Assembly: GCA_963693285.1 (NCBI GenBank)
Contig: OY848929.1
Location: 3,288,501 to 3,352,500, forward strand
Direction: 5' to 3'
Origin: Xestospongia muta
Taxonomy: Eukaryota > Porifera > Demospongiae > Haplosclerida > Petrosiidae
Length of the DNA stretch: 64,000 bases
The stretch's first letter is position 1. Every line of letters begins with the position of its first letter. This document shows positions 24,140 to 59,399 of this stretch, in pieces. A program made the translations under genes and the position numbers. The notes beneath the pieces were generated by a model. That model saw only the letters and a list, made by a program, of their open reading frames with translations. It was not told where the DNA came from and made no database searches.

Positions 24140-25175
24140 ACTTTCTTCAGCTATGAGGATGCAATATATGAACGAACAGATGGTACAGCTATGTGATCCC
24201 CACTATCATCTGCATTGGCTAATATCTTCATGGAAGACTTTGAAAACACAGCTATTGCTACATTCCACTTACAACCTAAATTTTGGAAGAGATATGTAGA
24301 TGACACTTTCGTCATTTGGCCACACAACAACTCCTCCTTACAAGAATTCCTGTCTCATATCAATGGTCTACATGATAGAATCAAGTTCACAATGGAGATT
24401 GAGAACAACAACTCTATTGCCTTCTTAGATGTACTTGTTTCTAAAAACAATAGTAGACTGACCACAACTGTTTACAGGAAACCTACACATACTGATAGAT
24501 ACCTGAATTACAGATCCAACCACCACCCACTCATCAAATCAGGTATTATCAAATGCCTCAGGAACAGGGCCCTCAATGTCTGCTCAGAAGGAAACTTCCC
24601 CTCTGAGTTAAACAGATTATACAATGTCTTCAGAGCTAATGGATATTCATCAAGTCGAGTAAACAACAGCCTTAAACCTTCAAGGCTCAAGAGAAATGAA
24701 GATGCTTCCACCCCTCCCTGCGACCTTTTAACAAAGACAGACAGGAAGAGAACCCTAGTTCTCCCTTATGTCAAAGGCCTCAGTGAGGACATTGGGAGAG
24801 CCTGTCGCTTCCTTAACATCACAACAGCCTTTTCCTCAAAATACACACTCAGAAGGTCCTTATCATGGGTCAAGATCCCCACTCCACAGGAAGAAAAGAT
24901 TGGTGTCATCTATAGGATCCCCTGTGAATGTGGAACTATCTACATCGGAAAAACAGGCCGAACATTGAAGACTAGGATAGCTGAACATAAAAGAGCTGTC
25001 ATGAACAGAGATACCAACAACGCTCTTGCATGCCACTACATTGACACAGGACACAGGATTTTATGGTTAGAAAGCCATCTACATCAAAACCACTAGCAAC
25101 ACCATCAACTCTGATCCAGGCTTAATCATCAATCCTACCTGGACTTCTCTATTCTGCAGTAAACGATCTTTATAA
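24140..25175 (+). pseudogene. Reverse transcriptase/GIY-YIG endonuclease, 5'-truncated and broken
   Basis: The reading frame begins inside the reverse transcriptase just upstream of the GTAM-SPLSS motif. A TGA at about 24,195 stands where Penelope-like proteins have the glycine of GTAMGSPLSP. After it the frame runs open from about 24,198 to 25,096. The catalytic RYVDD box lies near 24,290, followed by TVYRKPTHTDRYL near 24,470. A GIY-YIG nuclease follows, with GVIYRIPC and CGTIYIGKTGR near 24,905-24,960 and RIAEHKRAV after that. The frame stops early at 25,094. Another frame continues with AIYIKTTSNTINSDPGL and NPTWTSLFC to a stop at 25,175, so a deletion and frameshift lie near 25,070. The N-terminal reverse transcriptase half is missing. 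The element could not move by itself. Confidence 0.93.
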
Positions 25176-28259: not shown

Positions 28260-30780
28260 ACTTTAAGAAACAGTTAGGTTTAGCAGATGAACATCCAGTA
28301 CCACTCACCTGTTACTCTAAAACTGCAGCAGGTTTGCTATCTTGAATCTTAAGGGAATAAATAATTGTTTGTCATGACCATTATCATCATGGTTTTCAAT
28401 GTAGGGTAATCAGTCCATCCAACAGATCAAGTAAATAAATAAGCACATATGCATGTTTATATATATGTATGCATACATATACAATACACACACATATATA
28501 AACAAGTCACCCATTAAGGGCATTGTACCTAAAAACAGCCAGAACAAGTAGTAATATCCATCCCTTCCAGTATAGTTTCGATATGGCTAAATTAGGTCTT
28601 TTAAACGTTAAAGGTATAGATATAGATGAAAGGGGACTACAGGCTGTGATGTCCAATATTCTCTAGTAATGGCACCCTAGGAATGTCTACAAGGTATTGA
28701 ACAATTGAATATAGGTGATCAGGAATGACATAATTAAAACGATACTATAAATTTAGGAGTATACAGAAAGAAGAGCTAGTCACACATGTGAAAAATACAA
28801 ATCTATTTATCCTTTAAATGTCATCCTATTACCTAAGAGACATATTCGTCTAAAGAATAAAATGTGAAGAAGCAATCCATACCAAGGATTGGCTTTTATA
28901 CACTACAGTCATAATTATGAGTACAACATCTGACCTTACAAACTGTTATCAGAAAATATTGTCACTTTCCAGATCAGAAACGGAATACAAACATCACTAT
29001 AGAGATAGTTAAAAAGATATTACTGCACAACACAGGAACGTGGACATGAATGATTGGGTCTGGCAATTAATTATTCATGATGGGTGTTAACTTTTTAAAA
29101 ATAAAATTTTGTTAATTAATCAAATGACCTGCTTTATACGAAGTCTTTGGCAACGTCTGTTAGTGAAATACAATCAAGTTTTTCTTTTGGATATAAAGTA
29201 CCATAATGTCGCTTAGTCGTACCTGTGTTATTTTATTCGTAAATATGACTTCACACTCCTGAGGGAAATAAAGATCTCTTGTACATATACAATATATAAA
29301 CTTACAAACTGTTGTCAAAAAATAATTGTCACATCCCAGATCATCATCTTTGTTGCAGAAATATATACCAACGTCACTATAGAAATAGTTAAAAAGATAC
29401 TATTGCACAACAGTTATCAGAGAACTATATCAGTTCAGTATGACTAGAAGTATATTATCAAAGAAAGAAAGCACAGTAACTTAATGTAATCACATATTTT
29501 CTAAGGAAGAGGTTAGCAAAGATCATCCTTAGAACTCAATTAAGTATTAACAGAAAAGGCTAAATATTCATGCATACAAATCAAAAATATATATGAATAA
29601 ATAATTCAAGCCATATCAATTAATTAGTACATTTATAGTACAACAGAACAAGTCTGAATAAAACCAGGAGGGTGGAAATTTATGCCACAGGAATCGAAGA
29701 ATAGAACGCAAGTAAAGTGTACAGAACAGTTATTTATATTAAAATACAGGGTGATGTAAGAACTCAACAAAAGAATTATACACTAAGACACGTTACTTTA
29801 GGATATACTGAAATGAGTGTTCTTTAGAGGAGTGTACACAGGAGGACACATATACATACTAGCACACAATGAATGGGAATGGATACAGTGAACATAGTGG
29901 ACTTAAGAACAATAATAGGTAAAGATATAGGGTTACTTAAATGGTAATATTGACAATTGGACACAATGAGGGTTACATTAAGGGACAGTGGATAGAATCT
30001 TCTTTGGACATGGTGATCATAGTGGAGTTAGCAACATAAAAGGTAAGGACACTAGTTACCTATAGGAATATGATGATTGTTACATTAGAGGACGATGGAC
30101 ATAGTTTACTTCACAAAATAAGTCTTCTCTTCAGGTGATGAATCACCTTTGCTCTAGTGTGTAAAGAGATTCATTAATTTACAAGCAGATGTACTAGAAA
30201 AAGAAGGGCCATTATTATCAGATGCAACCAAAAGCACTAGATACAAGCTAGGTGGTAACGTGTTAAGTCTTCAGGTAAAAAACCTGAGGATAGTAGGAAA
30301 TGGGTGAGGTATATACCATCACACCCTAATAGAAACTACACACACAAACCTGTATCGAACTAGAAGCACCACACCCACTCATTAAGCTTTCATAGCCACA
30401 CCTACTAACTATTTTGGGTGTGGCTTATTTTGACCACACCTTATTTTTTAACGAATGCTTAAGTAGTCTCATTTTCCACCCAAAAAAGCCTTGGTATGTA
30501 TGTATGTATAAGGCTGGCAACAAACTGTTAATTAGTTGCTTGTGACTTCGTCAGCTTTTTTGCTCTGGATGATATACTCTCCTTTGTCCTTTGCTTTTAA
30601 AAGCATAATCATCTAATACTTACTTACCTTTACCTATTGTTAGAGATTATATAATTGTGCATGATATATAACATACAGATACCCAACTTTTTACGGTAAC
30701 TATGTAATACTACCACATGTAATACTACCAAACATAACACTGCCAAATGTAATACTGCCAGTCATTACATTACACGTCAG
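28260..30780. other. Non-coding region with dispersed repeat pieces
   Basis: No supported gene. It holds two copies of a small minus-strand exon-like module (28,940-28,996 and 29,306-29,376). It also holds a stretch at 29,040-29,130 (GTTAACTTTTTAAAAATAAA) that recurs near 35,215 and 59,645. Degenerate tandem units with AGTGGACTTA at 29,820-30,110 match the array at 57,800-58,400. A possible short minus-strand terminal exon (YIIQSKKADEV then a stop) lies near 30,540-30,610, just downstream of the twelve-exon array, but it is unproven. Confidence 0.5.
28940..29376 (-). repeat. Small exon-like module, type gamma (first two of at least six)
   Basis: Minus-strand cores bounded by an acceptor CTATTTCTATAG and donor GTAAGTT or GTAAGGTC. 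They lie at 28,940-28,996, 29,306-29,376, 35,058-35,124, 35,435-35,504, 59,481-59,551 and 59,829-59,874, with mirror copies on the plus strand in the left arm near 49,290-49,360 and 48,967-49,012. The core begins TGATGTTGGTATTC and often contains AAAGATGATGATCTGG. Lengths are 46 to 71 bp and not all multiples of three. No frame is conserved in all, so these are probably decayed exons spread with the surrounding repeat. Confidence 0.5.
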
Positions 30781-30783
30781 ATG

Positions 30784-32420
30784 TAGTGTATCCTGTTAAC
30801 TTACATCCCCAGACTCTTTTAGATAGATGAGTATCTTGAGCCTTGATCCTGATGTCCAACAATGCTATAGAATTAAAACAGAAATTAAGAATAATGATGC
30901 ATATCAATTAATTTAAACCAGTAGTGTATGCTGTTAACTTACATCCCTGGACTCTTTTAGACAGATGAGTGTCTTGAGCCTTGATCCTGATGTCCAACGA
31001 TGCTAAAGAATTAAAACGAAATAAAGAATAATGATGCATTATCAATTAATTTAAAGTAGTAGTGTATGCTCTTAACTTACATCCCTGGACTCTTTTAGAT
31101 AGATGAGTGTCTTGAGCCTTCATCCAGATGTCCAACGATGCTATAGAATTAAAACAAAAATTAAGAATAGTGATCTCTTATCAATTAATTTAAAGTAGTA
31201 GTGTATGTTGTTAACTTACATCTCTGGACTCTTTTAGATAGATGAGTGTCTTGAGCCTTGATCCTGATGTCCAACGATGCTATAGAATTAAAACAGAAAT
31301 TAAATAAATGATGTATTTATCGATTAATTTAAAGTAGTAGTGTATGCGGTTAACTTACATCCCTGGACTCTTTTAGATAGATGAGTGTCTTGAGCCTTGA
31401 TCCTGATGTCCAGCGATGCTATAGAATTAAAGCAGAAATTAAGAATAATAATGTATTTTCAATTAATTCAAGTAGTAGTTTATGCTGTTAACTTACATCC
31501 CTGGACTCTTTTAGATAGATGAGTGTCTTGAGCCTTCATCCAGATGTCCAACGATGCTATAGAATTAAAACAAAAATTAAGAATAGTGATCTCTTATCAA
31601 TTAATTTAAAGTAGTAGTGTATGTTGTTAACTTACATCCCTGGACTCTTTTAGATAGATGAGTGTCTTGAGCCTTGATCCTGATGTCCAACGATGCTATA
31701 AAATTAAAACAGAAATTAAGAATAATGATGCATTATCAATTAATTTAAAGTAGTAGTCTATGCTGTTAACTTACATCTCTGGACTCTTTTAGATAGATGA
31801 GTGTCTTGAGCCTTCATCCAGATGTCCAACGATGCTATAAAATTAAAACAGAAATGAAGAATAATGATGTCTTATCAATTAATTTAAAGTAGTAGTGTAT
31901 GCTGTTAACTTACATCCTTGGACTCTTTTAGATAGATGAGTGTCTTGAGCCTTCATCCAGATGTCCAACGATGCTATAAAATTAAAACAGAAATGAAGAA
32001 TAATGATGTCTTATCAATTAATTTAAAATAGTAGTGTATGCTGTTAACTTACATCCCTGTACTCTTTTAGATAGATGAGTGTCTTGAGCCTTGATCCTGA
32101 TGTCCAACGATGCTATAAAATTAAAACAGAAATTAAGAATAATGATGCATTATCAATTAATTTAAAGTAGTAGTCTATGCTGTTAACTTACATCTCTGGA
32201 CTCTTTTAGATAGATGAGTGTCTTGAGCCTTGAACCTGATGTCCAACGATGCTATAAAATTAAAACAGAAATTAAGAATAATGATGTCTTATCAATTAAT
32301 TTAAAGTAGTAGTGCATGCTGTTAACTTACATCCCTGGACTCTTTTAGATAGATGAGTGTTTTGAGCCTTCATCCTGATGTCCAACGATGCTATAAAAAA
32401 AACAGAAATAAAGACTAATA
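30784..32420. repeat. 138/139-bp tandem repeat, twelve units
   Basis: Twelve tandem units. The same internal point occurs at 30,805, 30,943, 31,081, 31,220, 31,359, 31,497, 31,636, 31,775, 31,914, 32,053, 32,192 and 32,331, so steps are 138 or 139 bp. All length change lies outside a 60-bp core. Neighbour-to-neighbour similarity has a period of about three units: flanks of units 3-4 match 6-7, and those of 7-8 match 10-11. It therefore grew partly by duplication of a block of about 417 bp. The core reads as an exon on the minus strand. Confidence 0.95.
30805..32390 (-). CDS. Array of twelve 60-bp exons encoding a 20-residue repeat
   Basis: Each repeat unit holds, on the minus strand, an acceptor (T-rich tract ending CTATAG, TTATAG or CTTTAG), a core of exactly 60 bp, and a consensus donor GTAAGTT. 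Exons lie at 30,805-30,864, 30,943-31,002, 31,081-31,140, 31,220-31,279, 31,359-31,418, 31,497-31,556, 31,636-31,695, 31,775-31,834, 31,914-31,973, 32,053-32,112, 32,192-32,251 and 32,331-32,390. The phase-1 frame is open in all twelve and reads SLDIRIKAQDTHLSKRVQG plus one serine codon split across the intron. One other frame has TGA in units 3, 6, 8, 9 and 12; the third has TAA in all. Introns are 78 or 79 bp. Several changes are silent only in the open frame (CTA/CTG, TTG/CTG, GTC/GTA, CAG/CAA). Spliced together they would give a basic repeat protein of about 240 residues. First and last exons of the gene are not identified, and I recognise no family. Confidence 0.7.
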
Positions 32421-33400
32421 ATGTATTATACACTGATGTTACAATATTGTATTGACGACATTACATTTGGCAGTATTACATTTGGCAGTATTACATTTGG
32501 CAGTATTATATTTTGTAGTATTAATTTATGTTGTCAAAGTAGCAGTTAGCATTTATATATTATTGATATACTTACCAATTGAGTGCTTCATCTGCTTGTA
32601 TCCGAGTGTGTGTATGAGTGACATAAAAGATAATGTAATACTGTTTAGTCGTACATTATGATATTAAATATATTTACCATTACACTGATATCCAAGCGGT
32701 ATATCTGGAAGAACAAGAATCATTATCTGTGATTGTAATTGAGTCCATCACTATGTAATAGATTATGTTACCATGTCATATGATAATCTACAAGACAAAT
32801 GCTTTGTCAAAACTGGACATTATCTAGTATATTATATAAAGCTGAATATAACAAGAAAGAGAACACAACAAAATTATGTGAGAAAATGTTTACTTTCTTA
32901 ATTATCTGCCTATGTTGACAGTGATACATAAAAGATATAAAATGTATATGTGTAATATTTAATACCTGTAGATATAGTAATGTCAGATATCATTGAATAG
33001 AATGAAGTGTTTATGAGTAATGTGATAAATACACACAAATAAATCAAAGAGTAAGACTAAAGTTGACTGACCTATTATCTGTAGTCTACAGAAGATTACA
33101 GCCTGTAATATTGATAAAACATTGCACAACATTTTACAGACCTGACTCTTACAAATATTCCACAGACCAGTGACAGTAGTCTGTTCCTACTGACATAGAA
33201 GGTGTGAAGTTTTGGCTAACTAATTGTACAAAGTTAGTAGAGATCTGTGATACATAGAGAGATAACACAACAGTAATTATAACACAGTCTTACATATTCT
33301 ACAAAAATACGTTAGTTGTTCATAAAACACTATTGGTTTTAGATAAGACATAGGCAGTAAGGGAATATACTACTTCATAGATGTGTCACATACATATAAA
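32421..33400. other. No gene seen; possible intron of the exon-array gene
   Basis: AT-rich sequence upstream, in minus-strand terms, of the twelve-exon array. A short run of the 13-bp unit TTACATTTGGCAG (32,460-32,510) mirrors a similar run with opposite sense near 30,715-30,770, on the other side of the array. Near 32,680-32,710 the minus strand has a short open segment (LPDIPLGYQCNG) followed by GTAAAT, which could be a small exon. Nothing else is supported. Confidence 0.35.
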
Positions 33401-43154: not shown

Positions 43155-43215
43155 TTGTTCATTGTGAGTTAAACAAGTTCCACTATTATATTAAGTAATT
43201 GTTTTTATTTTGTAG

Positions 43216-43580
43216 TTCCTCCTGTGATACTAAGCATTTCTCAAATTCATCATAGAGTACTCTATGCTGGTACATCTTTCTTTCTCAGATGTGTGATTAC
43301 ATTGAATGATCTTGTGACAATACCTGTTATTGTGAGAAGCCAGTGGACAAGAAATGGCACATCTGTTCCTAGTGGTCTTTCAAATGACGTTACTATTATA
43401 GATAGTCTTACAAAAATTAGCTCTCTTCAGTATAAAGTTACACTGCACTTCAATCCATTAGATAATAGAGATGATAGTGGACAGTATTCCTGTTATTTTT
43501 TAATATACTATCTAATATCACTGACTATATGTATGTAAAGAACACTTCAGCTAATTCTAGCACTACTATTACTGTACAAG
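43216..43580 (+). pseudogene. Ig-domain exon, one-base frameshift near its end
   Basis: Acceptor TTTTATTTTGTAG, then a phase-1 exon starting VPPVILSISQ. The B-strand cysteine is in FFLRCVITL, the core tryptophan in RSQWTRNGTSV, and the F-strand signature is DDSGQYSCYF. After it a run of six T at about 43,496-43,501 shifts the frame; adding one T would restore FNILSNITDYMYVKN, TSANSSTTITVQ and the donor CAAG-GTACAT at 43,580. Several N-x-S/T sites suit an extracellular domain. The single homopolymer change may be a real mutation or a sequencing error. Confidence 0.8.
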
Positions 43581-43675
43581 GTACATTGTATTTAATTCCA
43601 TTTACACTGTATAATATTTTTGTTGGAGTCAAAAAGTGGACTTAGTCATATGATTAATATTTCCATATCTTTTAG

Positions 43676-44033
43676 CAATCCCATCTCCAATAATGAACAT
43701 TATGACAACTGGTATATCCAGACCTGGTGAAGAATATAACATTACTTGTACTGTTGAAGTTATTGATAGACTTATAGTGACACCAACTATTGTATGGATC
43801 AAAGATAGTCTTAATACATCGTTAGTATCTGATGACCTAAATACTGTCGGTGTACCATCAGTACTTAGTAATATCTCAGATACTATGTACTCTCTGTCAC
43901 TGTTCTTTTCTTCACTAAATACCTCTGATGCTGGACAATATACATGTCGAGCAACCATCACAGTGGCTGAGATTAATGTCACAGTAACTAATACCATTTT
44001 ACTAGACCTGCCATTACAAACAAATACTTAACA
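43676..44033 (+). CDS. Ig-domain exon of a cell-surface-type protein
   Basis: Acceptor CCATATCTTTTAG, phase-1 exon. It reads AIPSPIMNIMTTG, then EEYNITCTVEVIDRL with the B-strand cysteine, TPTIVWIKDSLNTS with the core tryptophan, and NTSDAGQYTCRATITVA with the DxGxYxC signature. Phase-1 borders on both sides are typical of Ig exons. The frame continues past the expected domain end (VTNTILLDL) to a TAA at 44,031 without a clear donor. A further acceptor, TTTTCTTATAG, at 44,146 opens VPTPFQAVKC and then a stop, so the downstream domain is lost. Likely part of a decayed Ig receptor or adhesion gene; no membrane segment or leader is seen. Confidence 0.72.
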
Positions 44034-44840: not shown

Positions 44841-46588
44841 TAACTTGCCAATTTATATACAGGAGCATTTAATAACGAACAAACACTTAATCCAGACGAT
44901 TGCCATTGATATGATCCGATATAAACTTTTTCGTAATTCATTTAGATTTTGAATCACTGGTCATTTGAATTGAATTGAAAGTTCACATGATGACAATGTT
45001 AATATTAGTAAATAGTTAGTGAAAACAAATCCAAAGTTGATTTCACCTGCAGTACGTTAATGTTTGTACAGGTCGAGGAGTTCAGAGTGGTTAGAGTTTG
45101 AATAAATATTGGGTTAAGTGTTAAGTGTTTAGAATATAAATATTATGACATATGGTTCGTGCATTCATTTAATGCATTCATTTAATGCATTAATTAAGGT
45201 CATTGATCAAGAGTGAGGGTGGGGGGAGTCAGTGTTGTGGTTGTATAGTGGTTGTATAGTGGTTCTATTTCTAGAGCATGTAAAACTGTGATACAATGTG
45301 TACATCTTTGAATCCACCAAGCCTTTCCCTATTGTCTCCCTTCATTTTTGGCATTTCTGGAATGTACATAGAGTAGGATGAAAACAAAATGGAAGAGATA
45401 GGTTATCTCGAAAGGTTTTTTGATTACATCCTGCCTTTTGCATATAGAGTTAAATCAAAGTTGTTGTTCATTCTTTTTACCTGGTATGATGGTGTTTGGT
45501 TTCATTAGAAACTTATGTTGACATTAAAGTAGCTTGACATAGTAGTGCATTGATTGAGCTTTCATAAGGATGAACAGTACATTGTCCTTGGTATTTTAAG
45601 TTTTGTAACTTAAACATGGGATGTTGAGCCTCAACTACCTGATGTGATGGTTCTACATATATTCATGCATAAAGATCAAGTAACATTGTCATATGGGACT
45701 ATTTGTTTCAATATTCTCTTTTTATCCTGTCCTAAGGATTGATTGTTCTTTATCAAGTACAGAGATACAGATAACCTATATATTGTAGAGATAGGTACTC
45801 AAACAAGAGTTAGGACGTTTTCCCACAGTGAGTGATGTTGTGTCAGTGAGTTGAAATTATATACACCCACGCACATTTTCCCTCTGCCTAAAGATGACAA
45901 AAATGTAATAAATCATGACAACATTTTGTTGTTCTGGTGGAACATTCCAACTTTCTGGAATTGAGGGGAAGATTGCAGTACCTTGTTTCAAAGTGTTAAC
46001 AGAGTATCCACTTGTGGACAAGGATGAATATCCAAGGGAAGTAGATGGAAAACGAATGATACATCAGGTTGAGTGGAATTGATATGAGCAAGCTTGAATA
46101 CATCTTGTTGAGTGAATAGGAAACAATTAACATTTACTTGTGATTTTGAGTCCTTTTACGACTATACAGCCATAACATTCTTCCCATCTAATGCATAAAA
46201 AGTGAATTTAGGTAATTATTATGTTATCACTCCATTCCCATAGCATGGATGTTACAGTATACCTAAAAATGTACTAATTATTTGTAATATATACAATGTG
46301 ATAGTGATTGAGTCCTTATAACCTAAGCAAGAGTTTAGCATTGTATAGCAGAATCTACAGATGAAAACACAATCTTTATTGTTTTATTGCACTGCATCAC
46401 TCATCATACTATCCATCCAACATCAAATGGTGATATTCGGGCTTCTACCGTATATCGGCTTATTTGTGCGATGATTTTAATCGTGCTATATAAACGTGCG
46501 TTTTTAGGGCAATCGCACATTTTAACATCCGCATTAATTTGCACACGCAAATGCCACACCCATTTTCATTGCAACAAAGCACGTGGTG
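44841..46588. other. Outer left-arm sequence, no gene seen
   Basis: Contains a doubled 15-bp direct repeat (GCATTCATTTAATGCATTCATTTAATGCAT core near 45,160-45,195), a doubled GGTTGTATAGT near 45,239-45,260 and a G-run (GGTGGGGGGAG). No supported exon. The mirror is 62,253-64,000. Confidence 0.5.
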
Positions 46589-46823
46589 TATTTGGCCAGA
46601 ACTGAACTATCTCAAGAGAAATGCTCCACAGGATGTTGGAGAGTTTCTTTCAGATCCAACAGATTGATCGTCATCAATCAGTGAACGCTCTATTACGCTC
46701 GCAAATGATGAGGTACGTACGTTAACAGAAGCTAGGCCTAAGCGGAGAAAGACGGAGCGGCAGGCTTACTGTGAGAAGACAAGAGCTGAAATAGGCAGGT
46801 ATGCTAGCACCAACGTGCATTAA
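46589..46823 (+). other. Exon-like basic segment in the left arm, one stop
   Basis: One frame reads PELNYLKRNAPQDVGEFLS, a TGA, then SSSISERSITLANDEVRT, LTEARPKRRKTERQAYC and EKTRAEIGR to a TAA at 46,821. The lysine/arginine-rich stretch looks protein-like. GTACGT after AATGATGAG and an acceptor-like TTAACAG would allow a short intron, and GTATGC after ATAGGCAG would be a donor. The frame has a nonsense codon in both arms, so a working gene is doubtful. The mirror copy is at about 62,018-62,252 on the minus strand. Not recognised. Confidence 0.4.
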
Positions 46824-47229
46824 TTGTCATCAGAGATCTATGTTTTCACTTACATATTCGTTATGTAAAACCGCACAAAAGAATAACCGCATAAAATAAT
46901 ATTTACAATAATCAAATTTACATTCGTATGAATAAAGTTGTATGTGGTATACATCAGTCGAGGTACACAAACATGTATTATCACACAACATTCTAAGCTA
47001 ATTTTTAAATTCTGAAATGAATAATACTTGAGATACATAACCTCATTTCACCACCAACTAAATGCAGGTTTGTTATTGTTGTATGACATTTTCAATACTT
47101 ACTCCCCAGAACAGGGCGTTGTCCATCAGAATTCATGACAAGCAATTGGTCAGACACAGAGAGACTCTCACCAGGTGCTAATGTTTTTCAACAAGGTATT
47201 CAATACTAAGTATGCTATTAAATTCTTAC

Positions 47230-47401
47230 CACCCACTAGTTAGATAATGACTGTCATCTCCTACATGATTTGACTGATGTAACCATTTAATGGTTTCATC
47301 ATAAAATTGGTAATTGCAAATCATTAATATATAATCTCTGACCATATCAGAAAAATTACAAAACCATGTATCACCTTTTTTGTATCTCTGAGACGGGGAG
47401 C
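47230..47401 (-). CDS. Candidate internal exon, left-arm mirror copy
   Basis: Exact mirror of the exon at 61,440-61,611, with the same acceptor and donor. The companion exon candidate lies at 47,103-47,177. There one base differs between arms: CTT here against CTG in the right arm, which is silent for leucine in the LSVSDQLLVM frame. Same uncertainties as for its partner. Confidence 0.5.
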
Positions 47402-48169
47402 CTAAAATATAAATCATAAATTACTATACATACTAGTCAAATAGCTATTTCATTGTACATTTTGGCTATATACTTACTAAAAGGTTGACTCTGAGCCAGC
47501 TAAGTCATCTCTAAGCAGCAACAGTTCTTTGTTTTTGGAGCTGCAGGTCATGTGATATAAGGAAGGTGAAGCTAATGCTTCTTTTAGCACACCCACAATA
47601 AAAATAGCTACCAAGAGAGATCACTCTCATATCTCCTTGATTTCTCACATGAAATGTAAATGAGAATAACTGACTATGTGCTCGCAAGTGGTATTTAATT
47701 CTTCGACTTCCAGATTCGTAGTATACCAAGCGGGCATGACATAATAATATTCAAATCTCACATTTTTTTAATAAACATTATTCTCGATATATCTTTTCTT
47801 AATTTACAGACTAAAACACAGGATTGTCTATAGTAGCAGTATCAGCTTATAATGGAGGTATGCAATGTCTCACATTCTTTTCCCTGATCCTGTGACTTTA
47901 TTGGGACTACTCAGCAATTATTATTAAGTGGTCATCCTCTTAATATACTTCTAGATGGTATAATTTAAAGAAAGTCAACTTCATAGACTTAATATGTGGT
48001 GATCTTTGTCATTGATTACACCACATTCTACAAACATAACTGTAAAATATAGACATCAGAGGCGTGTACATCAATGATACTGTGATTATTTGTGTCAATT
48101 ATAATTAGTATCTTTGTTATATTGATGTGGTTTATATTTATAATGTTTCAACTAACGTCATGCATTAAA

Positions 48170-48960
48170 TGTTTGAACTATTGTTCGTTGGGAATGATAC
48201 TTGGGGTATGTGCTCAATAGCTCCTAATGCTAGGCAGTAACTCCCCTCGTTGTAACAAGATGATAACATGCTTCATTACAATAGCAGGACTCCGTAATAT
48301 GTGTGTTAAATAAACTTACATTCAGACAGGCAACGTTCATTGTGTGTTAGATAATATACAGTGAGTTACATTGTTGTTACTATCATGGCACGATCTTGAT
48401 GATCAACTGGGCATGCTCAGTTCGACTAACCACTCTAGTGGCGCCAATTTTGTACTAGAAAATAATAAACTTAGACGCCATTACTTCATTTTAGCAACCA
48501 GTCTGTCAGATGTTACTTCTGCAGGGCTGTTTAGCAAAACAAAAAGAGGGAACTGGAGTCCATGTAGTCGAGTCGTTCAGACAGTCTTCTATGCAGGAAA
48601 TACTGAGACAAAGCTGTTCCTGGCTACAACAAAAATGGAAGACAGTAGTAACAAATACGGTCAGAGTAGCAGTATCCATGTGTGTCGGTATTTAGCTTGT
48701 CCCACGTAGCTTTTGTATTCAGTGAGCTTTTATTCACTTTTAGCCCTTAATCTTAGTGCATTGGTGGCCTTGAACTAAGCCTGTCATAACATCATTTATA
48801 AACACAATACCTGATTTAGTCCTTTTCAGTGTAGTATATGGAATTTAGTAAGCATTATATTTGGTACAATACAGCAAGTATGAATAAAATCAGTCAAGTA
48901 TCTTTTTTACAAGTCTATTTCTTCTCCTTGGGTCAAATTTTGTATTAGTATCAACTATCT
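48170..48960 (-). repeat. Arm segment shared with 36.2-36.9 kb
   Basis: Reads on the minus strand as GTGGGACAAGCTAAATACC, CTGACCGTATTTGTTACTAC and GAGCATGCCCAGTTGATCAT. A diverged copy lies at 36,240-36,990 and the mirror at 59,880-60,670. Overlapping plus-strand open frames here (48,371-48,709) lack ATG-plus-splice support and are not conserved in the diverged copy, so I do not call them genes. Confidence 0.65.
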
Positions 48961-49441
48961 CTATAGTGATGTTGGTATTTCGTGTCTGCAACATATTTTC
49001 TGATAACAGTTTGTAAGTTCACATGTTGTAGATGTAAGAGAGATCTTTAGTTCCTTCAGGAGAGTAAGTCATAATTATGAATAATATGATATAGGTATGA
49101 CTAAACCACATTATGGTACTTTATTTCAGGTCACAAATCTAGACTCTCTCATTTTGGTAGATTCGATTAATTACCATTTTATTTTTAAAAGTTAACGCCT
49201 GTAATGAAAATTATTTAAGCAGACCAAATTTTCTTTCATGTCTACCTTCCTGTGTTTTGAAGTAATGTCTTTTTTAACTATGTCTGTAGTGATGTTGGTA
49301 TTCTGTTTCTGCAACAAAGATGATGATCTGGGCAGTGACAATGTTTTCTGATATGAGTTTGTAAGTTCATATGTTGTAGATGTAATTATTATTAATTTGA
49401 TATGTTGTAGATGTAATTATTATTAATTTGTTCTCCCTATA

Positions 49442-49445
<4 letters not shown>

Positions 49446-49478
<33 letters not shown>
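49446..49478. repeat. TA microsatellite, left arm
   Basis: Run of TA dinucleotides. The mirror run at 59,363-59,395 has the same length, since the coordinate sum of the two arms is unchanged across it. Confidence 0.9.
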
Positions 49479-49480
<2 letters not shown>

Positions 49481-50439
49481 TCTATTATTTAAGATCTGAT
49501 AAGATGGTTTGCACCACAAAGATGCCAGCAGAAACAAAGCTGTACTCCCTACAAAAAGGACAAGTGACAAATTTGCTCAGAGTACTGTACTCACAAGCAT
49601 ATAAACATGCATGCATTAACTGCCAAGCTTTTTTCTTAGCTTTCATATAGTTTTTAATTTAGCTTGAGCCTTGAGTTGGTGCATACATAGGCACTATATG
49701 GAACAAGCCTTGAAGTACACACATAGTATATTTATGACTTAGCATTCTTGTTAATAGCATATAGTATAGGTTTGGTGCATGCATGGTATAGAACTTGCCT
49801 TTACAGTTCAAGGGTTAACTGTTGAAAACTACTCTATAACCAATAACATCCTCTATATAAAATATACTAGAATGTTTAGCCAATATTGTATTATAAATTA
49901 TTAGCTTATTAGAGCCAGTCTGCTGCCTATAGTACAAGTACATCCTCCCTGTTTTGCAACAAGTTCATCCATCTTGTAATTGCCTACTTTTAGTAGTGTA
50001 GTTATATAGCATTACTAGTCATAACTTGTATTATGACAAGAATTATTATTATATATGTACATGTACTAATTTTTTTACTTTGCGTTTTAATACTGCATCT
50101 GGATGACTCTTTTATTCAATGTTCCCTAACCCTTATTATGTTGCAGTGTCAAAGCATCCTCTATATAAAATGTAGCCGATATTTTGTTATTAATTACCTA
50201 GCCAATATTTTGTTATAAATAATTATTAGCTTAGAGCTAGTCTGCTGCCTGTAGTACAGGTATATCCTCCCTCTTTAGGAGTCTTAGGGTTACATTTTGC
50301 AACAAGTAAATCCCATTATGTAATTGCCTACTTTTAGTGGTGTAGTTATATATCATTAGTAGTCATACCTTTTATTATGACAAGAATTATTATACAAGTA
50401 CCTGTGCTAATTTATGTGTAATGTAATTCTCATGTTAAC

Positions 50440-51080
50440 TGTATCTGAATGACTCTTGTATTCAATGTCCCCTAATGTAACCCTCATTATATCCCAGCCT
50501 CAAATTCACTGTCCCTTAATGTAACCCTCATTATGTCCCAGTGTCATTGTAATCCTGCAAGTATCCTTGTGTCGTACCTATTAATTGATCTTTCTTAAGT
50601 CCACTATGTTTGCTGTGTCCAAATGACTCTTCTATCCATTATCCTCAAATGTAACACTTATTCCAGTGTCAAAGTGATCCTGTGTCCATACCTGTTGTTG
50701 TTATTGTTGTTAAGTCCACTATGTTCACTTTTCCAAACAAATCTTATATTCACTATGCCCTAATTTAACTGTCATTATATCCTTGTTTCTCCTTGTTTAA
50801 GTCCACCTGGTTATCAGTGTCTGAATCACCCTTTTATCTACTGTACCCAAAGGAGCTGTCATTATATCCCTATACTAACCTGTGTCCTTAGATATTATAT
50901 GCTAAGTCTACTGTGTACACTGTGTCCAAATGATCTTATCATTTGTATACTAAATTAACCTTCATTATATCCTTGATTGTCTTTATCTATTATTTTATAA
51001 AGTCCATTGTGTTCACTGTGTCAAAACAACTCTTCTATTGACTACCCCCTAATGAAACTATCATTATACCCCTTAAGTAT
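50440..51080 (-). repeat. Degenerate tandem units with TAAGTCCACTATGTTCACTG
   Basis: Irregular units of roughly 70-130 bp, each with a form of AGTGGACTTA (minus strand), a form of GGATATAATGACAG, and ATAGAAGAGTCATTTGGACA. About six units are present here, with the mirror at 57,760-58,400 and related pieces at 29,820-30,110 and 34,220-34,350. No coding frame is conserved. Confidence 0.65.
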
Positions 51081-51189
51081 CCATTTATCTCTTCAATTTT
51101 TCAATTGAACCCTATAATTTATCAAGTCTGTCCATGCAAACATCCATTTATCTATTTATCTTTTCAAGTGATCCTTATATGAACATTGC

Positions 51190-54130
51190 TAGGCATTAAT
51201 CAGTCTCTACTATTTATCAAATGGAGGAAACCTCAATTACACAGTCTTTGTTCTATGACTTCAACTTTGATATATGGAGGAAACCTCAATTAAACAGTCT
51301 TTGTTCTATGACTTCTGCATTGAGGTAGCCATAATATTAATGTAGTTCAATTTATGTAGGTTTACATACCCAGTATTAAGCATTTTAGATTGATTAGTAC
51401 TGCATCGACAATGCATTTTAGTTTGTAGCCTAATGCTTTCTCTATTCCTTTTGTTTCTTTACAGTACAACTCTGCTGTGAATACTATGAAAATCTGTTTA
51501 GTTCTGTCCTCATAAGGAGAGTAAATGGCTGGATAGATCACGACAATATGAATAGATAGTACCTGTACAATGTTTCTTTGATAGCTATGTATCAATCCAT
51601 TTATTCAATTATTTATCATGTCTGTCCATGCATCCATCCCTTTATCTTTTCAAGTGATCACTATACCGGTATGAAGATTTCTAGGCATTTATCAGTCTCT
51701 ACTATTTATCAAACGAAGGAAACCTCAATTAAACAGTCTTTGTTCTATGACTTCTGCATTGAGGTAGGCATAATATTAATGTAGTTCAATGTATGTAGGT
51801 TTACATACCCAGTATTAATCATTTTAGAATGATTAGTACTGCATCGACAGTGCATTTTAGTTTGTAGCCTAATGCTTTCTCTATTCTTATTGTTCTTTTA
51901 CAGTTGGTACAACTTGCAATGAATAATGCTCCAAAACTCTTATCTGTTAAATGTTTGTCTTGGTAAGGAGAGTGAATGCCTGGTTAGATTGCTGAGCATG
52001 TGGATAGCATAAGTGTATAATGTATCATTTGATAGCTATGTATCAATCCATTTATTCAACTTATTATCATGTCTGTCCATGTATCTATCCATTTATCTTT
52101 TAACAGATCTCATTATGAATATTGCTAGGCATTTATCAGTCTTGACTATTTATCAAATAGAGGAAACCTCAATTAAACAGACTCTATTTGTGATCCACAA
52201 CTGGTCATGTAAATTGTTCTTTGTTCTATGACTTCTGCTTTGAGGTAGCCATAATATTAATGTAGTTCAATGCATGTAGGTACACGTACCCGGTGTTAAC
52301 TACTTTAGAATGATTAGTACTGCATCGACAATGCATTTTAGTTGGTAGCCTAATGCTTTTTCTATTCCTTTTGTTCCTTTACAGTACAACTCTGCTGTGA
52401 ATACTATGAAAATCTGTTTAATTCTGTCCTCATAAGGAGAGTGAATGACTGGATAGATCACGAGCATATGAATAGATGGTACCTGTACAATGTATCTTTT
52501 GGCAGCTATGTAGCAATCCGTTTATTCAACTATTTATTATGTCTGTCCATACATCCATCTATTTATCTTTTAACTGATCCAATGGAGAAAACATCAATTA
52601 AACAGACTTCATTTGTGATCCATAACTGGTCATGTAAATAGTTCTTTGTTTTATGACTACCATTTTGAGATAGCCATAATATTAATGTAGTTCAATGCAT
52701 GTACCTTTACGTACTGAGTATTAATCATTTTCGATTGATTAGTACTGCATGGACAATGCATTTTAGTTCGTAACCTAATTCTTTCTCTATTCTTATTGTT
52801 CTTTTACAGTTGGTACAACTTACTATTCAATGAAGATGGCTCCAACAAATCTGTTGTGAATACTATAAATATCTGTAAAATGTTTGTCCTGGTAAGGAGA
52901 GTGAATGGCTGGATAGATTGCTCAGGATATGAATTTATGGTAGCTTATAATGTATCTCTTAATAGCTATGTATCAATCCACTTATTCAACTATTTATCAT
53001 GTCTGTCTTTTAACTGATCCCTATAAGAACATTGCTAGTCTTGACTATTTATCGAATGGAGGAAACATCAATTAAATGACACCATTTGTGATCCACAACT
53101 GGTCATGTAAATTGTTCTTTGTTCTACGACTACTGCTTTGAGGTAGCCAAAATATTAATGTAGTTCAATGCATGTACCTTCACGTACTTAGTATTAATCA
53201 TTTTTGATTGATTTATACTGCATCGACAATGAATTTTAGTTTGTAGCCTAATTCTTTCTCTATTCTTATTGTTCTTTAACAATTGGTACAACTTGCAATG
53301 AATAATGCTCCAAAACTCTTCTGTGAATACCATCAATATCTGTTCAATGTTTGTCTTGGTAAGGAGAGTGAATGCCTGGTTAGATTGCTGAGCATGTATC
53401 ATTTGATAGCTATGTATCAATCCATTTATTCAACTATTTTATCATGTCTTTCCATGCATCCATCCATTTATCTTTTAACGGATCTCATTATGAATATTGC
53501 TAGGCATTGATCAGTCTTGACTATTTGATCATTTTTGATTGATTTATACTGCATCGACAATGCATTTTAGTTTGTAGCCTAATACTTGCTCTATTCTTAT
53601 TGTTCTTTTACAGTTGGTACAACTTAGTTTTCAAAGAAGATGGCTCCAACAAATCTGCTGTGAATGCTATCAATATCTGTAAAATGTTTGTCCTGGTTAG
53701 GAGAGGGAATGGCTGGATACATGCCTGAGCTTATGAATATATGGTAGCTTATAATATATCTCTTGATAGCTATGTATCAATCCACTTATTCAACTATTTA
53801 TCATGTTTGTCCATGCATCCATCCATTTATCTTTTAACGAATCCCATTATTAATATTGCTAGGCATATGTCAGTCTTGACTATTTATCATTGACTATATA
53901 GTGATCCCTATATCAAGATTACTAGGCATTTATCAGTCTCTACTATTTATCAAATGGAGGAAACCTCAATTAAACAGTCTTTGTTCTTTGACTTCTGCAT
54001 TGAGGTAGCCATAATATTAATGTAGCTCAATGTATGTAGGTTTACATACACAGCATTAATCAGTTTAGATTGATTAGTACTGCATCGACAATGCATTATA
54101 GTTGGTAGGCTAATTCTTTCTCTATTCTTA
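51190..54130 (+). repeat. Tandem array of exon-plus-intron modules of about 330-530 bp
   Basis: The landmark GCATCGACAATGCATTTTAG recurs, with changes, at about 51,401, 51,841, 52,322, 52,747, 53,220, 53,551 and 54,082. Each is followed by a C/T-rich tract (TCTCTATTCTTATTGTTC). Most have an acceptor TTTACAG, an exon-like core and GTAAGGAGAGTGAATG. Cores include 51,904-51,962, 52,810-52,891 and 53,614-53,695. A shared frame reads WYNLLFNEDGSNKSVV then NTINICKMFVLV in the better copies, and SAVNTMKICLVL or SSVNTINICSMFVLV in others. Some acceptors (53,280, CAG to CAA) and donors (51,511 and 52,431, GTAAGG to ATAAGG) are broken. The last unit runs into satellite instead of an exon. Confidence 0.7.
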
Positions 54131-54133
54131 TAG

Positions 54134-54401
54134 TTCTTTAGATCAGCTTAATTAAGCACTTTCTAAACTTTCTTAACTATCAAAAAGCTTTAAACAGTCT
54201 AATTTAGAGGTTTGATATATTTAACTCTTTAGGTCAGTTTAATTAAGCAGTTTTGATAGTTATTTTCTAAACTTTCTTAACTATCAAAAAGCTCTAAACA
54301 ATCTATTAAGAGTTTTAACCTATTTAAACTAAGTCATCCAAAGATTTAAGACAGATAAAGTTACTAAACTCTTTAGATCAGCTTAATTTAGCAGTTTTGA
54401 T
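54134..54401 (+). repeat. Isolated satellite fragment in the palindrome spacer
   Basis: About 1.9 degenerate copies of the 145-bp satellite monomer, 27 kb away from the main array. Matches include TTTAGATCAGCTTAATTAAG, TCTAAACTTTCTTAACT and AAAGATTTAAGACAGATAAA. It resembles the diverged edge type (TTAATTAAGCAG, CTATCAAAAAGCTC) rather than the homogeneous core. Its left border replaces the exon of a tandem module at TTCTTTA, a possible microhomology. Confidence 0.93.
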
Positions 54402-54734
54402 ACATTTATTTGCTTGACTGTGAGTTTTTGTTGCAACTATTTGCATGTCAGTCATTTCAATTTAGCCATTCATTCATTCATCTGTCATTTATTTATCTTA
54501 TTTGTTTATCCATCTATCTATGTACTCATTGATTCATTCATCTATTCATTCATCCATTCCAACCTCTGTTGATCCTACTGCATCAGATCTTGAACTAAAG
54601 ACAACAGGTGTTCCAGTTGTCAATAAACAGATAGAGTTTATTGTATGTCCTCATGACTAAGTGGTATTTATTGAAGGCGTAAATGTAAGATAACATCTTT
54701 GTTAAACGTAATACAGCTTGTCTAATAGCTGACT

Positions 54735-55250
54735 TAGCATTAATTAACCTATAAAGTGATACGACATAATATAATATGATATAATTCATAGATGATTAGA
54801 CAGTACTTATTAAATATTCATATTAAACACTATACAATTACAAATAAAGAGGTAAAGACCACTATGAATAAGAGAATAGATGCTACACAGGTTTTTCAAA
54901 ATAGCAATGGTCTTTAAAGGACCACGTTCTATTTGGCCTTCATTAGTAACCAATATATATATAAAATGTACACATACATATACATGTACAAGTACACATG
55001 TGTATACTTTCATCATATCATTGAGTAGTTTAACAACTCTATCGCTACTTCTTGTTCAATGGATCCTTATAGGTACAAAAGTTGATGACTTCTAACTTGA
55101 GCCTCACCCACAACAGATTTGGGATATTTAGGAGTTTCGAGTGTCACTATAGCCACAGCAGTATCAAGCAAGTTACTAATGTTATGATAGAAATAACACA
55201 TAGTTATAATATATCACTAATATGTGTAATGTATGTACATATACAAACAA
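54735..55250 (-). pseudogene. MYCBP2-like exon relic, copy 3
   Basis: Minus-strand copy of the exon found at 37,147 and 39,422. One part (55,085-55,160) reads DTAVAIVTLETPKYPKSVVG. The other (54,850-54,960) reads LVTNEGQIERGPLKTIAILK then NLCSIYSLIHSG. About 120 bp of CA/TA-rich sequence separates the two halves, so the exon is split. Intron sequence on both sides also matches the other copies (TGATATATTATAACTA; GAATTATATCATATTATA). It lies only in the spacer and has no mirror in the arms. Confidence 0.8.
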
Positions 55251-55536
55251 TGCATTAGTGACTAGGGATGGTGAACCTCATTCATCTAAGTACTATTGGC
55301 CAACTTAACTGATGACATTATTCAGGTAATTTAGCACATATAAACGCTTTCCATTTCTAATTATAAACATGTAGTTATCATCTTTTGTATGATTGATATA
55401 AATTCACTACATAACCATTCAGATTTAAAAAGGCCAAAGATTTTAAAACCATATAAAATACACATGCATAATTTATACATGGTCCTCTATTTATAGTAAC
55501 ATTATACAGATATAGCATAGACGTAACGATTGATAC

Positions 55537-58500
55537 ATACATAGCTATCAAATGATACATGCTCAGCAATCTAACCAGGCATTCACTCTCCTTACCAAGA
55601 CAAACATTGAACAGATATTGATGGTATTCACAGAAGAGTTTTGGAGCATTATTCATTGCAAGTTGTACCAATTGTTAAAGAACAATAAGAATAGAGAAAG
55701 AATTAGGCTACAAACTAAAATTCATTGTCGATGCAGTATAAATCAATCAAAAATGATTAATACTAAGTACGTGAAGGTACATGCATTGAACTACATTAAT
55801 ATTTTGGCTACCTCAAAGCAGTAGTCGTAGAACAAAGAACAATTTACATGACCAGTTGTGGATCACAAATGGTGTCAGTTTAATTGATGTTTCCTCCATT
55901 CGATAAATAGTCAAGACTAGCAATGTTCTTATAGGGATCAGTTAAAAGACAGACATGATAAATAGTTGAATAAGTGGATTGATACATAGCTATTAAGAGA
56001 TACATTATAAGCTACCATAAATTCATATCCTGAGCAATCTATCCAGCCATTCACTCTCCTTACCAGGACAAACATTTTACAGATATTTATAGTATTCACA
56101 ACAGATTTGTTGGAGCCATCTTCATTGAATAGTAAGTTGTAAAGGTACATGCATTGAACTACATTAATATTATGGCTATCTCAAAATGGTAGTCATAAAA
56201 CAAAGAACTATTTACATGACCAGTTATGGATCACAAATGAAGTCTGTTTAATTGATGTTTTCTCCATTGGATCAGTTAAAAGATAAATAGATGGATGTAT
56301 GGACAGACATAATAAATAGTTGAATAAACGGATTGCTACATAGCTGCCAAAAGATACATTGTACAGGTACCATCTATTCATATGCTCGTGATCTATCCAG
56401 TCATTCACTCTCCTTATGAGGACAGAATTAAACAGATTTTCATAGTATTCACAGCAGAGTTGTACTGTAAAGGAACAAAAGGAATAGAAAAAGCATTAGG
56501 CTACCAACTAAAATGCATTGTCGATGCAGTACTAATCATTCTAAAGTAGTTAACACCGGGTACGTGTACCTACATGCATTGAACTACATTAATATTATGG
56601 CTACCTCAAAGCAGAAGTCATAGAACAAAGAACAATTTACATGACCAGTTGTGGATCACAAATAGAGTCTGTTTAATTGAGGTTTCCTCTATTTGATAAA
56701 TAGTCAAGACTGATAAATGCCTAGCAATATTCATAATGAGATCTGTTAAAAGATAAATGGATAGATACATGGACAGACATGATAATAAGTTGAATAAATG
56801 GATTGATACATAGCTATCAAATGATACATTATACACTTATGCTATCCACATGCTCAGCAATCTAACCAGGCATTCACTCTCCTTACCAAGACAAACATTT
56901 AACAGATAAGAGTTTTGGAGCATTATTCATTGCAAGTTGTACCAACTGTAAAAGAACAATAAGAATAGAGAAAGCATTAGGCTACAAACTAAAATGCACT
57001 GTCGATGCAGTACTAATCATTCTAAAATGATTAATACTGGGTATGTAAACCTACATACATTGAACTACATTAATATTATGCCTACCTCAATGCAGAAGTC
57101 ATAGAACAAAGACTGTTTAATTGAGGTTTCCTTCGTTTGATAAATAGTAGAGACTGATAAATGCCTAGAAATCTTCATACCGGTATAGTGATCACTTGAA
57201 AAGATAAAGGGATGGATGCATGGACAGACATGATAAATAATTGAATAAATGGATTGATACATAGCTATCAAAGAAACATTGTACAGGTACTATCTATTCA
57301 TATTGTCGTGATCTATCCAGCCATTTACTCTCCTTATGAGGACAGAACTAAACAGATTTTCATAGTATTCACAGCAGAGTTGTACTGTAAAGAAACAAAA
57401 GGAATAGAGAAAGCATTAGGCTACAAACTAAAATGCATTGTCGATGCAGTACTAATCAATCTAAAATGCTTAATACTGGGTATGTAAACCTACATAAATT
57501 GAACTACATTAATATTATGGCTACCTCAATGCAGAAGTCATAGAACAAAGACTGTTTAATTGAGGTTTCCTCCATATATCAAAGTTGAAGTCATAGAACA
57601 AAGACTGTGTAATTGAGGTTTCCTCCATTTGATAAATAGTAGAGACTGATTAATGCCTAGCAATGTTCATATAAGGATCACTTGAAAAGATAAATGGATG
57701 TTTGCATGGACAGACTTGATAAATTATAGGGTTCAATTGAAAAATTGAAGAGATAAATGGATACTTAAGGGGTATAATGATAGTTTCATTAGGGGGTAGT
57801 CAATAGAAGAGTTGTTTTGACACAGTGAACACAATGGACTTTATAAAATAATAGATAAAGACAATCAAGGATATAATGAAGGTTAATTTAGTATACAAAT
57901 GATAAGATCATTTGGACACAGTGTACACAGTAGACTTAGCATATAATATCTAAGGACACAGGTTAGTATAGGGATATAATGACAGCTCCTTTGGGTACAG
58001 TAGATAAAAGGGTGATTCAGACACTGATAACCAGGTGGACTTAAACAAGGAGAAACAAGGATATAATGACAGTTAAATTAGGGCATAGTGAATATAAGAT
58101 TTGTTTGGAAAAGTGAACATAGTGGACTTAACAACAATAACAACAACAGGTATGGACACAGGATCACTTTGACACTGGAATAAGTGTTACATTTGAGGAT
58201 AATGGATAGAAGAGTCATTTGGACACAGCAAACATAGTGGACTTAAGAAAGATCAATTAATAGGTACGACACAAGGATACTTGCAGGATTACAATGACAC
58301 TGGGACATAATGAGGGTTACATTAAGGGACAGTGAATTTGAGGCTGGGATATAATGAGGGTTACATTAGGGGACATTGAATACAAGAGTCATTCAGATAC
58401 AGTTAACATGAGAATTACATTACACATAAATTAGCACAGGTACTTGTATAATAATTCTTGTCATAATAAAAGGTATGACTACTAATGATATATAACTACA

Positions 58501-59360
58501 CCACTAAAAGTAGGCAATTACATAATGGGATTTACTTGTTGCAAAATGTAACCCTAAGACTCCTAAAGAGGGAGGATATACCTGTACTACAGGCAGCAGA
58601 CTAGCTCTAAGCTAATAATTATTTATAACAAAATATTGGCTAGGTAATTAATAACAAAATATCGGCTACATTTTATATAGAGGATGCTTTGACACTGCAA
58701 CATAATAAGGGTTAGGGAACATTGAATAAAAGAGTCATCCAGATGCAGTATTAAAACGCAAAGTAAAAAAATTAGTACATGTACATATATAATAATAATT
58801 CTTGTCATAATACAAGTTATGACTAGTAATGCTATATAACTACACTACTAAAAGTAGGCAATTACAAGATGGATGAACTTGTTGCAAAACAGGGAGGATG
58901 TACTTGTACTATAGGCAGCAGACTGGCTCTAATAAGCTAATAATTTATAATACAATATTGGCTAAACATTCTAGTATATTTTATATAGAGGATGTTATTG
59001 GTTATAGAGTAGTTTTCAACAGTTAACCCTTGAACTGTAAAGGCAAGTTCTATACCATGCATGCACCAAACCTATACTATATGCTATTAACAAGAATGCT
59101 AAGTCATAAATATACTATGTGTGTACTTCAAGGCTTGTTCCATATAGTGCCTATGTATGCACCAACTCAAGGCTCAAGCTAAATTAAAAACTATATGAAA
59201 GCTAAGAAAAAAGCTTGGCAGTTAATGCATGCATGTTTATATGCTTGTGAGTACAGTACTCTGAGCAAATTTGTCACTTGTCCTTTTTGTAGGGAGTACA
59301 GCTTTGTTTCTGCTGGCATCTTTGTGGTGCAAACCATCTTATCAGATCTTAAATAATAGA

Positions 59361-59399
<39 letters not shown>

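Follow-up and report, generated by a model that had tools for sequence, protein, structure and literature searches.

Does a row of twelve exon-like units of identical length in the sponge Xestospongia muta belong to a gene for a protein whose length is set by repeat number, to a gene of another kind, or to a repeat without gene function? The window, by which we mean the whole 64,000-nucleotide stretch that was analyzed (C13:3288501-3352500 of a 158-Mb, 28-contig assembly), carries an array of such cores with a unit spacing of 138-139 bp, the 139-base repeat (Table 1). On contig C28 of this assembly, a complete COX1 open frame of 538 aa reads TGA as tryptophan (12 TGA codons) and retains AGA and AGG codons, and it resembles the COX1 of a demosponge. 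As the initial annotation had described, the twelve cores lie where it had placed them on the minus strand, 12 of 12 are exactly 60 bp, each sits between an AG and a GTAAGT, and the intervening parts measure 78 or 79 bp. Its account of the reading frames stood in part. The frame that it had read, referred to as offset 2 herein (offset 0 is frame 0 and offset 1 is frame 1), is open in all twelve window cores, and offset 1 contains stops in all twelve as claimed, but the stops attributed to offset 0 occur in only 5 of the 12, which leaves that part of the claim weak.

Table 1. Features of the array and of the rest of the window (positions counted within the window)
Feature	Position	Strand	Remarks
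Array	30805..32390	minus	twelve exon-like 60-bp cores and 78-79-bp intron-like spacers
First core (unit 1)	32331..32390	minus	acceptor AG at 32391-32392
Last core (unit 12)	30805..30864	minus	followed by GTAAGT
Upstream arm	32460..32527	minus	15-bp minisatellite, AATACTGCCAAATGT in array sense
Downstream arm	30702..30760	minus	same 15-mer inverted, complementary to the upstream arm
Piece D	32576..32591	minus	exon-like, 16 bp, ATGAAGCACTCAATTG before GTAAGT; ATG in offset-2 frame
5' flank	32806..33303	minus	conserved in the family, without convincing coding signal
3' flank	30120..30804	minus	conserved
145-bp satellite	1-24008		about 24 kb
299-codon open frame	24197-25096	plus	
Two immunoglobulin-like exon frames	43173-44028	plus	
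Near-perfect palindrome	44841-64000		center near 54420
439-bp direct repeat, two copies	56669-57575		inside the palindrome

Elsewhere in the window, the 145-bp satellite undergoes at least two changes of orientation, with its TRF consensus flipping near 13.2 kb and 20.1 kb. A 46-bp satellite piece matches the genome 1722 times with at most 1 mismatch and, among the matches listed, all are on C13 at 3.03-3.19 Mb. The palindrome has 6316-nt arms that are 100% complementary and an inner 1570-nt pair; its outer arm runs past the window end, and it could be biology or an assembly fold-back. The 299-codon open frame weakly resembles reverse transcriptase, with a score under the Pfam cut-off, and its tail presumably resembles a GIY-YIG nuclease as in Penelope-like elements. 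The second of the immunoglobulin-like frames passes the Pfam cut-offs (Ig_3, I-set and ig) and the first falls below them.

The array in the window has relatives throughout the assembly. We read the repeat unit at 20 places on 8 contigs, with about 3 to 20 units at each. Seventeen arrays yielded 198 units (seven near-identical arrays on C13, three on C15, three on C14, two on C3 and one each on C9 and C12), and the further places were an array of 20 units on C4, 3 degenerate units at C9_3918, and 3 degenerate units plus one about 5 kb away on C2. A 41-bp unit pattern with at most 3 mismatches gave 185 matches in the genome, and the reversed control gave 0. Searches of the genome with the flanks returned more places, on C5 and others, plus weaker pieces near contig ends; these place counts are lower bounds, with only the best candidates scored. 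The homology of the window's 3' flank with the C12 and C2 copies stops near 30120. Diverged flank pieces, both 5' and 3' at ∼68-72% identity, lie near the ends of C1, C3, C8, C10, C12, C13, C14 and C15, unlike the arrays that we read, which sit well inside contigs and in several cases near the middle. The copies on C13 are recent duplicates and in effect one observation.

Comparison of the family members bears on what holds the cores at 60 bp. The claim that length change is confined to the introns is true of the window and fails in the family, since 11 of the 198 cores in the 17 arrays are not 60 bp (they measure 52, 58, 59, 62 or 64 bp, against 60 bp in 187) and since 19 of the 20 units on C4 have cores of 59 bp, the other unit being without a donor. 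Because of these C4 and other off-length cores, we regard core length as evened out within each array; the family does not hold it to a multiple of three. In the C4 array of 20 units with 59-bp cores (L024 1156-3850), units 5-9 and 10-14 resemble a duplicated block. Indel events numbered 6 in cores versus 22 in intron middles (p = 0.0016), which favors some constraint, whether on coding or on exon length, unless the core just contains fewer slippery runs. Such a constraint would speak against a little-coding family.

The splice-like borders are better kept than the sequence around them. Across the 17 arrays, the acceptor AG was found in 198 of 198 units and the donor begins GTAAG in 186. Donors without GT occur in 6 of the 15 units of C9_2900, the sole losses among these arrays, and in 1 of 20 units on C4, and the acceptor is lost in 1 of the 3 units of C9_3918. 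Variable sites amounted to 2 of 28 at the splice dinucleotides versus 237 of 942 elsewhere (p = 0.026), and the same comparison without C9 gave 1 of 24 versus 191 of 807 (p = 0.025). Since the splice dinucleotides vary less than other sites, splicing is plausible; since the test treats related copies as independent, which they are not, the depletion is moderate evidence only. Together with the upstream piece D and its in-frame ATG, these observations uphold the exon-like anatomy that had been proposed. We also gauged how readily such anatomy arises by chance. Upon 5000 dinucleotide shuffles of the 139-mer, a GTRAGT donor preceded at 30-110 bp by a pyrimidine-rich AG appeared in 2.0% of shuffled units on the given strand and in 10.6% on either strand. 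For one ancestral unit, the anatomy is above the usual chance level but not extreme, and the cores, being copies of one unit, do not count as twelve independent observations.

Our leading, if tentative, reading is that the window array would be the block of exons in one copy of a dispersed gene-like family with many members, which would make spliced RNA, would code for little or be decaying, and may owe back-splicing or block skipping to the minisatellite arms described below. Its nearest rival is a repeat family without gene function, that is, a non-genic repeat or a non-autonomous mobile family in which splice-like motifs were present by chance in the founding unit and were copied along. We consider this possible, if somewhat unlikely. 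The dispersal of copies over many contigs with degenerate pieces near contig ends fits such a repeat, as does the frequency at which shuffled units acquire a donor and acceptor pair, and C9_2900 retains its 15 units while its donors decay. Substitution is also alike in core and intron (variable sites 97 of 419 in cores and 106 of 397 in intron middles, p = 0.26). The depletion of change at the splice dinucleotides, however, is not what a repeat of this kind predicts. Retroelement fragments adjoin several copies, but no transposase or reverse transcriptase was recognized within the shared block, and comparison of the copies by eye revealed no shared clean ends, terminal repeats or target-site duplication, the ends of homology varying by lineage. 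Sharp mobile-element ends, which we had first suspected, proved to be a breakpoint private to C14 and C3.

Regarding the protein that the initial annotation had envisaged, the open frame in the cores is no surprise because at least one frame, joined head to tail, is open in 97% of shuffled 60-mers. Among the 198 units, 148 are open in frame 0, 141 in the offset-2 frame and 57 in frame 1, and the favored frame varies by lineage. For instance, all 33 C14 units and 13 of the 22 C3 units are interrupted by a stop in the offset-2 frame; frame 0 is free of stops in all 33 and in 19 of the 22, respectively. We then read from the ATG of piece D, leaving out one C13 copy (3020). The reading runs for 245 aa and is open to the array end in the window, and it gave 245 aa in C13_3368 and C13_3165, 285 aa in C13_3139, 101 aa in C13_3027, 175-180 aa in C15 and 229 aa in C4. 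On C14 and C3, a stop ends it at 13-24 aa in all 5 arrays. The ATG is kept in the C13, C15, C14, C3 and C4 copies, is followed by a stop after 1 aa in C9_2900 and is lost in C12; piece D was not matched by the pattern in C13_3487, whose donor reads GTAAGC. That the window and C13_3139 are open throughout from an ATG counts against a little-coding family.

Substitutions in the offset-2 frame point the other way. Our census covered 168 units, from four of the seven C13 arrays and from the other arrays whole, with the last unit of each dropped; distinct substitutions were merged by related lineages, and C4 was left out since its cores are not 60 bp. Silent changes in the offset-2 frame were 20 of 81 versus 23.3 expected, with 7 changes making stops. 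The corresponding count was 19 versus 20.6 expected in frame 1 and 31 versus 21.2 expected in frame 0 (p = 0.012), where the excess comes from C14 and C3 (11 of 17, p = 0.0006 as the best of nine lineage-by-frame tests) and speaks against a little-coding family. Within C13, C15 and C9, the offset-2 frame showed 12 silent changes of 47 (13.8 expected) and 4 stop-making changes (2.4 expected), and no silent excess was found in any frame within the window's own group. Replacement in the proposed frame thus appears to proceed at a neutral rate, as far as copies within one genome tell, an outcome that the initial annotation had itself named as counting against its protein. On C4, where 59-bp exons rotate the frame, a stop falls in the unit's own slot in 1 of 20 units from the piece-D start versus 5 and 7 for the other starts, and a hand estimate that ignores kinship puts the probability of the frame-1 share of this avoidance at ∼0.04. 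Stop-bearing variants of the C4 array largely avoid the slots read from the ATG of piece D.

These data do not bear out a protein frame that keeps the cores at 60 bp, given the 59-bp cores on C4, the early stops on C14 and C3 and the neutral look of offset-2 substitutions. Likewise, a protein with repeat-set length is at odds with a reading frame that the family does not preserve and with an exon length on C4 that is not a multiple of three, and a spliced or decaying RNA gene is more likely. Signs of translation are patchy and fall in different frames in different lineages. A narrower version, in which the offset-2 frame encodes a repeat protein that is functional in C13, the window included, and perhaps in C15 and C4, and is a pseudogene elsewhere, is in our estimation unlikely. 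The long readings from piece D, the stop avoidance on C4 and the fewer indels in cores would suit it, but it must accommodate the absence of a silent excess, the truncated readings on C14, C3, C15 and C13_3027, a stop in C13_3487, C13 copies that amount to one observation, and the want of any homologue. A frame-0 protein with a 20-residue unit and phase-0 borders, functional in C14 and C3 with the window copy a pseudogene (TGA in 5 of 12 units), is very improbable: its open units and silent excess on C14 and C3 are offset by the lack of an in-frame ATG, by a stop that piece D, read by eye in frame-0 phase, meets just before the array, by a scan of upstream phase-0 donors that gave no convincing first exon, by the ease with which shuffles yield an open frame, and by the same want of a homologue.

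That no known domain is present, as first reported, agrees with our searches, in which neither a homologue nor a believable domain was found. A protein search with the frame-0 and offset-2 repeats gave no candidate, a PDB search with the frame-0 repeat gave none at E 1, and Rfam returned nothing at gathering score over the whole window. Several Pfam families matched the repeats, two of them above the whole-protein cut-off (AlphaC_N2 in frame 0 and SspK in offset 2); with no single stretch passing, we discarded both as chance similarity that adds up over the copies of a repeat. We also rejected coding exons in the 5' flank, for frames on both strands are alike conserved and no convincing phase-0 first exon emerged.

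A new feature of the family is a 15-bp minisatellite, specific to it, that stands on both sides of the array in opposite orientation, ∼70 bp upstream of the first core and ∼45 bp downstream of the last. A 36-bp minisatellite pattern (at most 3 mismatches) matched the genome 68 times, and by-eye comparison showed all 68 to coincide with places matched by the 5' or 3' flank of the family. The computed pairing of the arms was -93.8 kcal/mol in the window versus -35.3 for shuffled arms, with energy controls throughout being mononucleotide shuffles (20-100 each). Similar values were obtained for C15 (-100.1), C12 (-113.6), C14 (-105.1), C3 (-107.2) and C4 (-103.9 kcal/mol), and strong arms were also present in five further C13 and C15 copies. 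C9_3918 reached -44.0 kcal/mol (z -5.0), and C9_2900 at -22.7 (z ∼0) was no better than shuffled. In all, 14 of the 16 copies tested, a set that left out three C13 copies and the C2 copy, pair strongly (z -9.4 or lower), one weakly and one not. In an eight-copy alignment, the arms rank with the most conserved parts of the family (0.96-0.97 versus means of 0.81 and 0.70), along with a 5'-flank piece ending GTAAGAG and, to a lesser degree, piece D. Pair-specific co-evolution was discarded, as copies pair with each other's arms as strongly as with their own. Minisatellites can stay alike through exchange without function, which counts against our preferred reading. The copies with weak or lost arms, C9_3918 and C9_2900, have also lost splice dinucleotides; C4, with strong arms yet one donor of 20 lost, speaks against such a tie.

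Returning to the spliced, little-coding or decaying RNA gene, each member would consist of a conserved 5' flank, a short exon-like piece containing an ATG, an intron with the 15-bp minisatellite, ∼3 to 20 near-identical exons of 59/60 bp with short introns, and an intron with the inverted minisatellite. A spliced RNA is probably made, and exon number would drift by unequal exchange; the family would be little-coding or decaying, as the unconserved protein frame implies. The arms, whose distances from the outer splice sites sum to ∼115 bases, may pair and loop out the whole block, which would place the last donor beside the first acceptor. The block would then either be joined into a circular RNA or be skipped altogether. 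Because complementary intron sequences are known to favor back-splicing, arm pairing should favor one of these outcomes. The specific proposal that the private inverted minisatellite loops the exon row so that the locus makes circular RNAs, sized by the unit number of the exon minisatellite, is decidedly unlikely as it stands.

If the family is transcribed, it would provide a natural experiment on the interplay of repeat number, intron complementarity and splicing, as its members within a single genome carry about 3 to 20 units, have exons of 59 or 60 bp, and have either kept or lost their arms. If it is not, it would illustrate how easily a tandem repeat is mistaken for a gene when it happens to contain a donor, an acceptor and an open frame, which matters for annotation.

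None of the papers returned by our literature searches describes such an array, judged by titles and opening abstracts. The idea of an exon row is known in kind, from micro-exon genes in the part of the literature that we cite and from collagens; combined with private inverted arms it is a variant that we have not found described. Minisatellites inside genes are tandem arrays with a drifting unit number, a likeness to the sponge array, whose unit differs in spanning a whole exon and intron. Fibrillar collagen genes contain rows of equal-length 54-bp exons that originated by tandem duplication, as the exon row here appears to have done, and differ in that collagen exons have diverged and are under strong coding constraint. 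The absence of fibrillar collagen genes with 54-bp exons has been reported in a ctenophore, according to the available portion of that article (PMC5395295). Inverted repeats in flanking introns facilitate exon circularization and, in the excerpt that we draw on, are described as neither sufficient nor always needed (PMC4479058); complementary sequences flank the exon block on both sides here as well. Our arms, known from sequence alone, differ from those in consisting of a private 15-bp minisatellite that encloses near-identical exons in a row. Also comparable are the micro-exon genes of Schistosoma, whose exons are mostly 36 bp or less and whose transcripts are known, as the accessible text of one report has it (PMC8293314). 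Unlike those genes, the sponge family has near-identical tandem units of 60 bp (59 bp in a sister array), has no conserved frame and is represented by genomic sequence only; what the two share is many short exons that could be skipped without a frameshift, as in the window copy.
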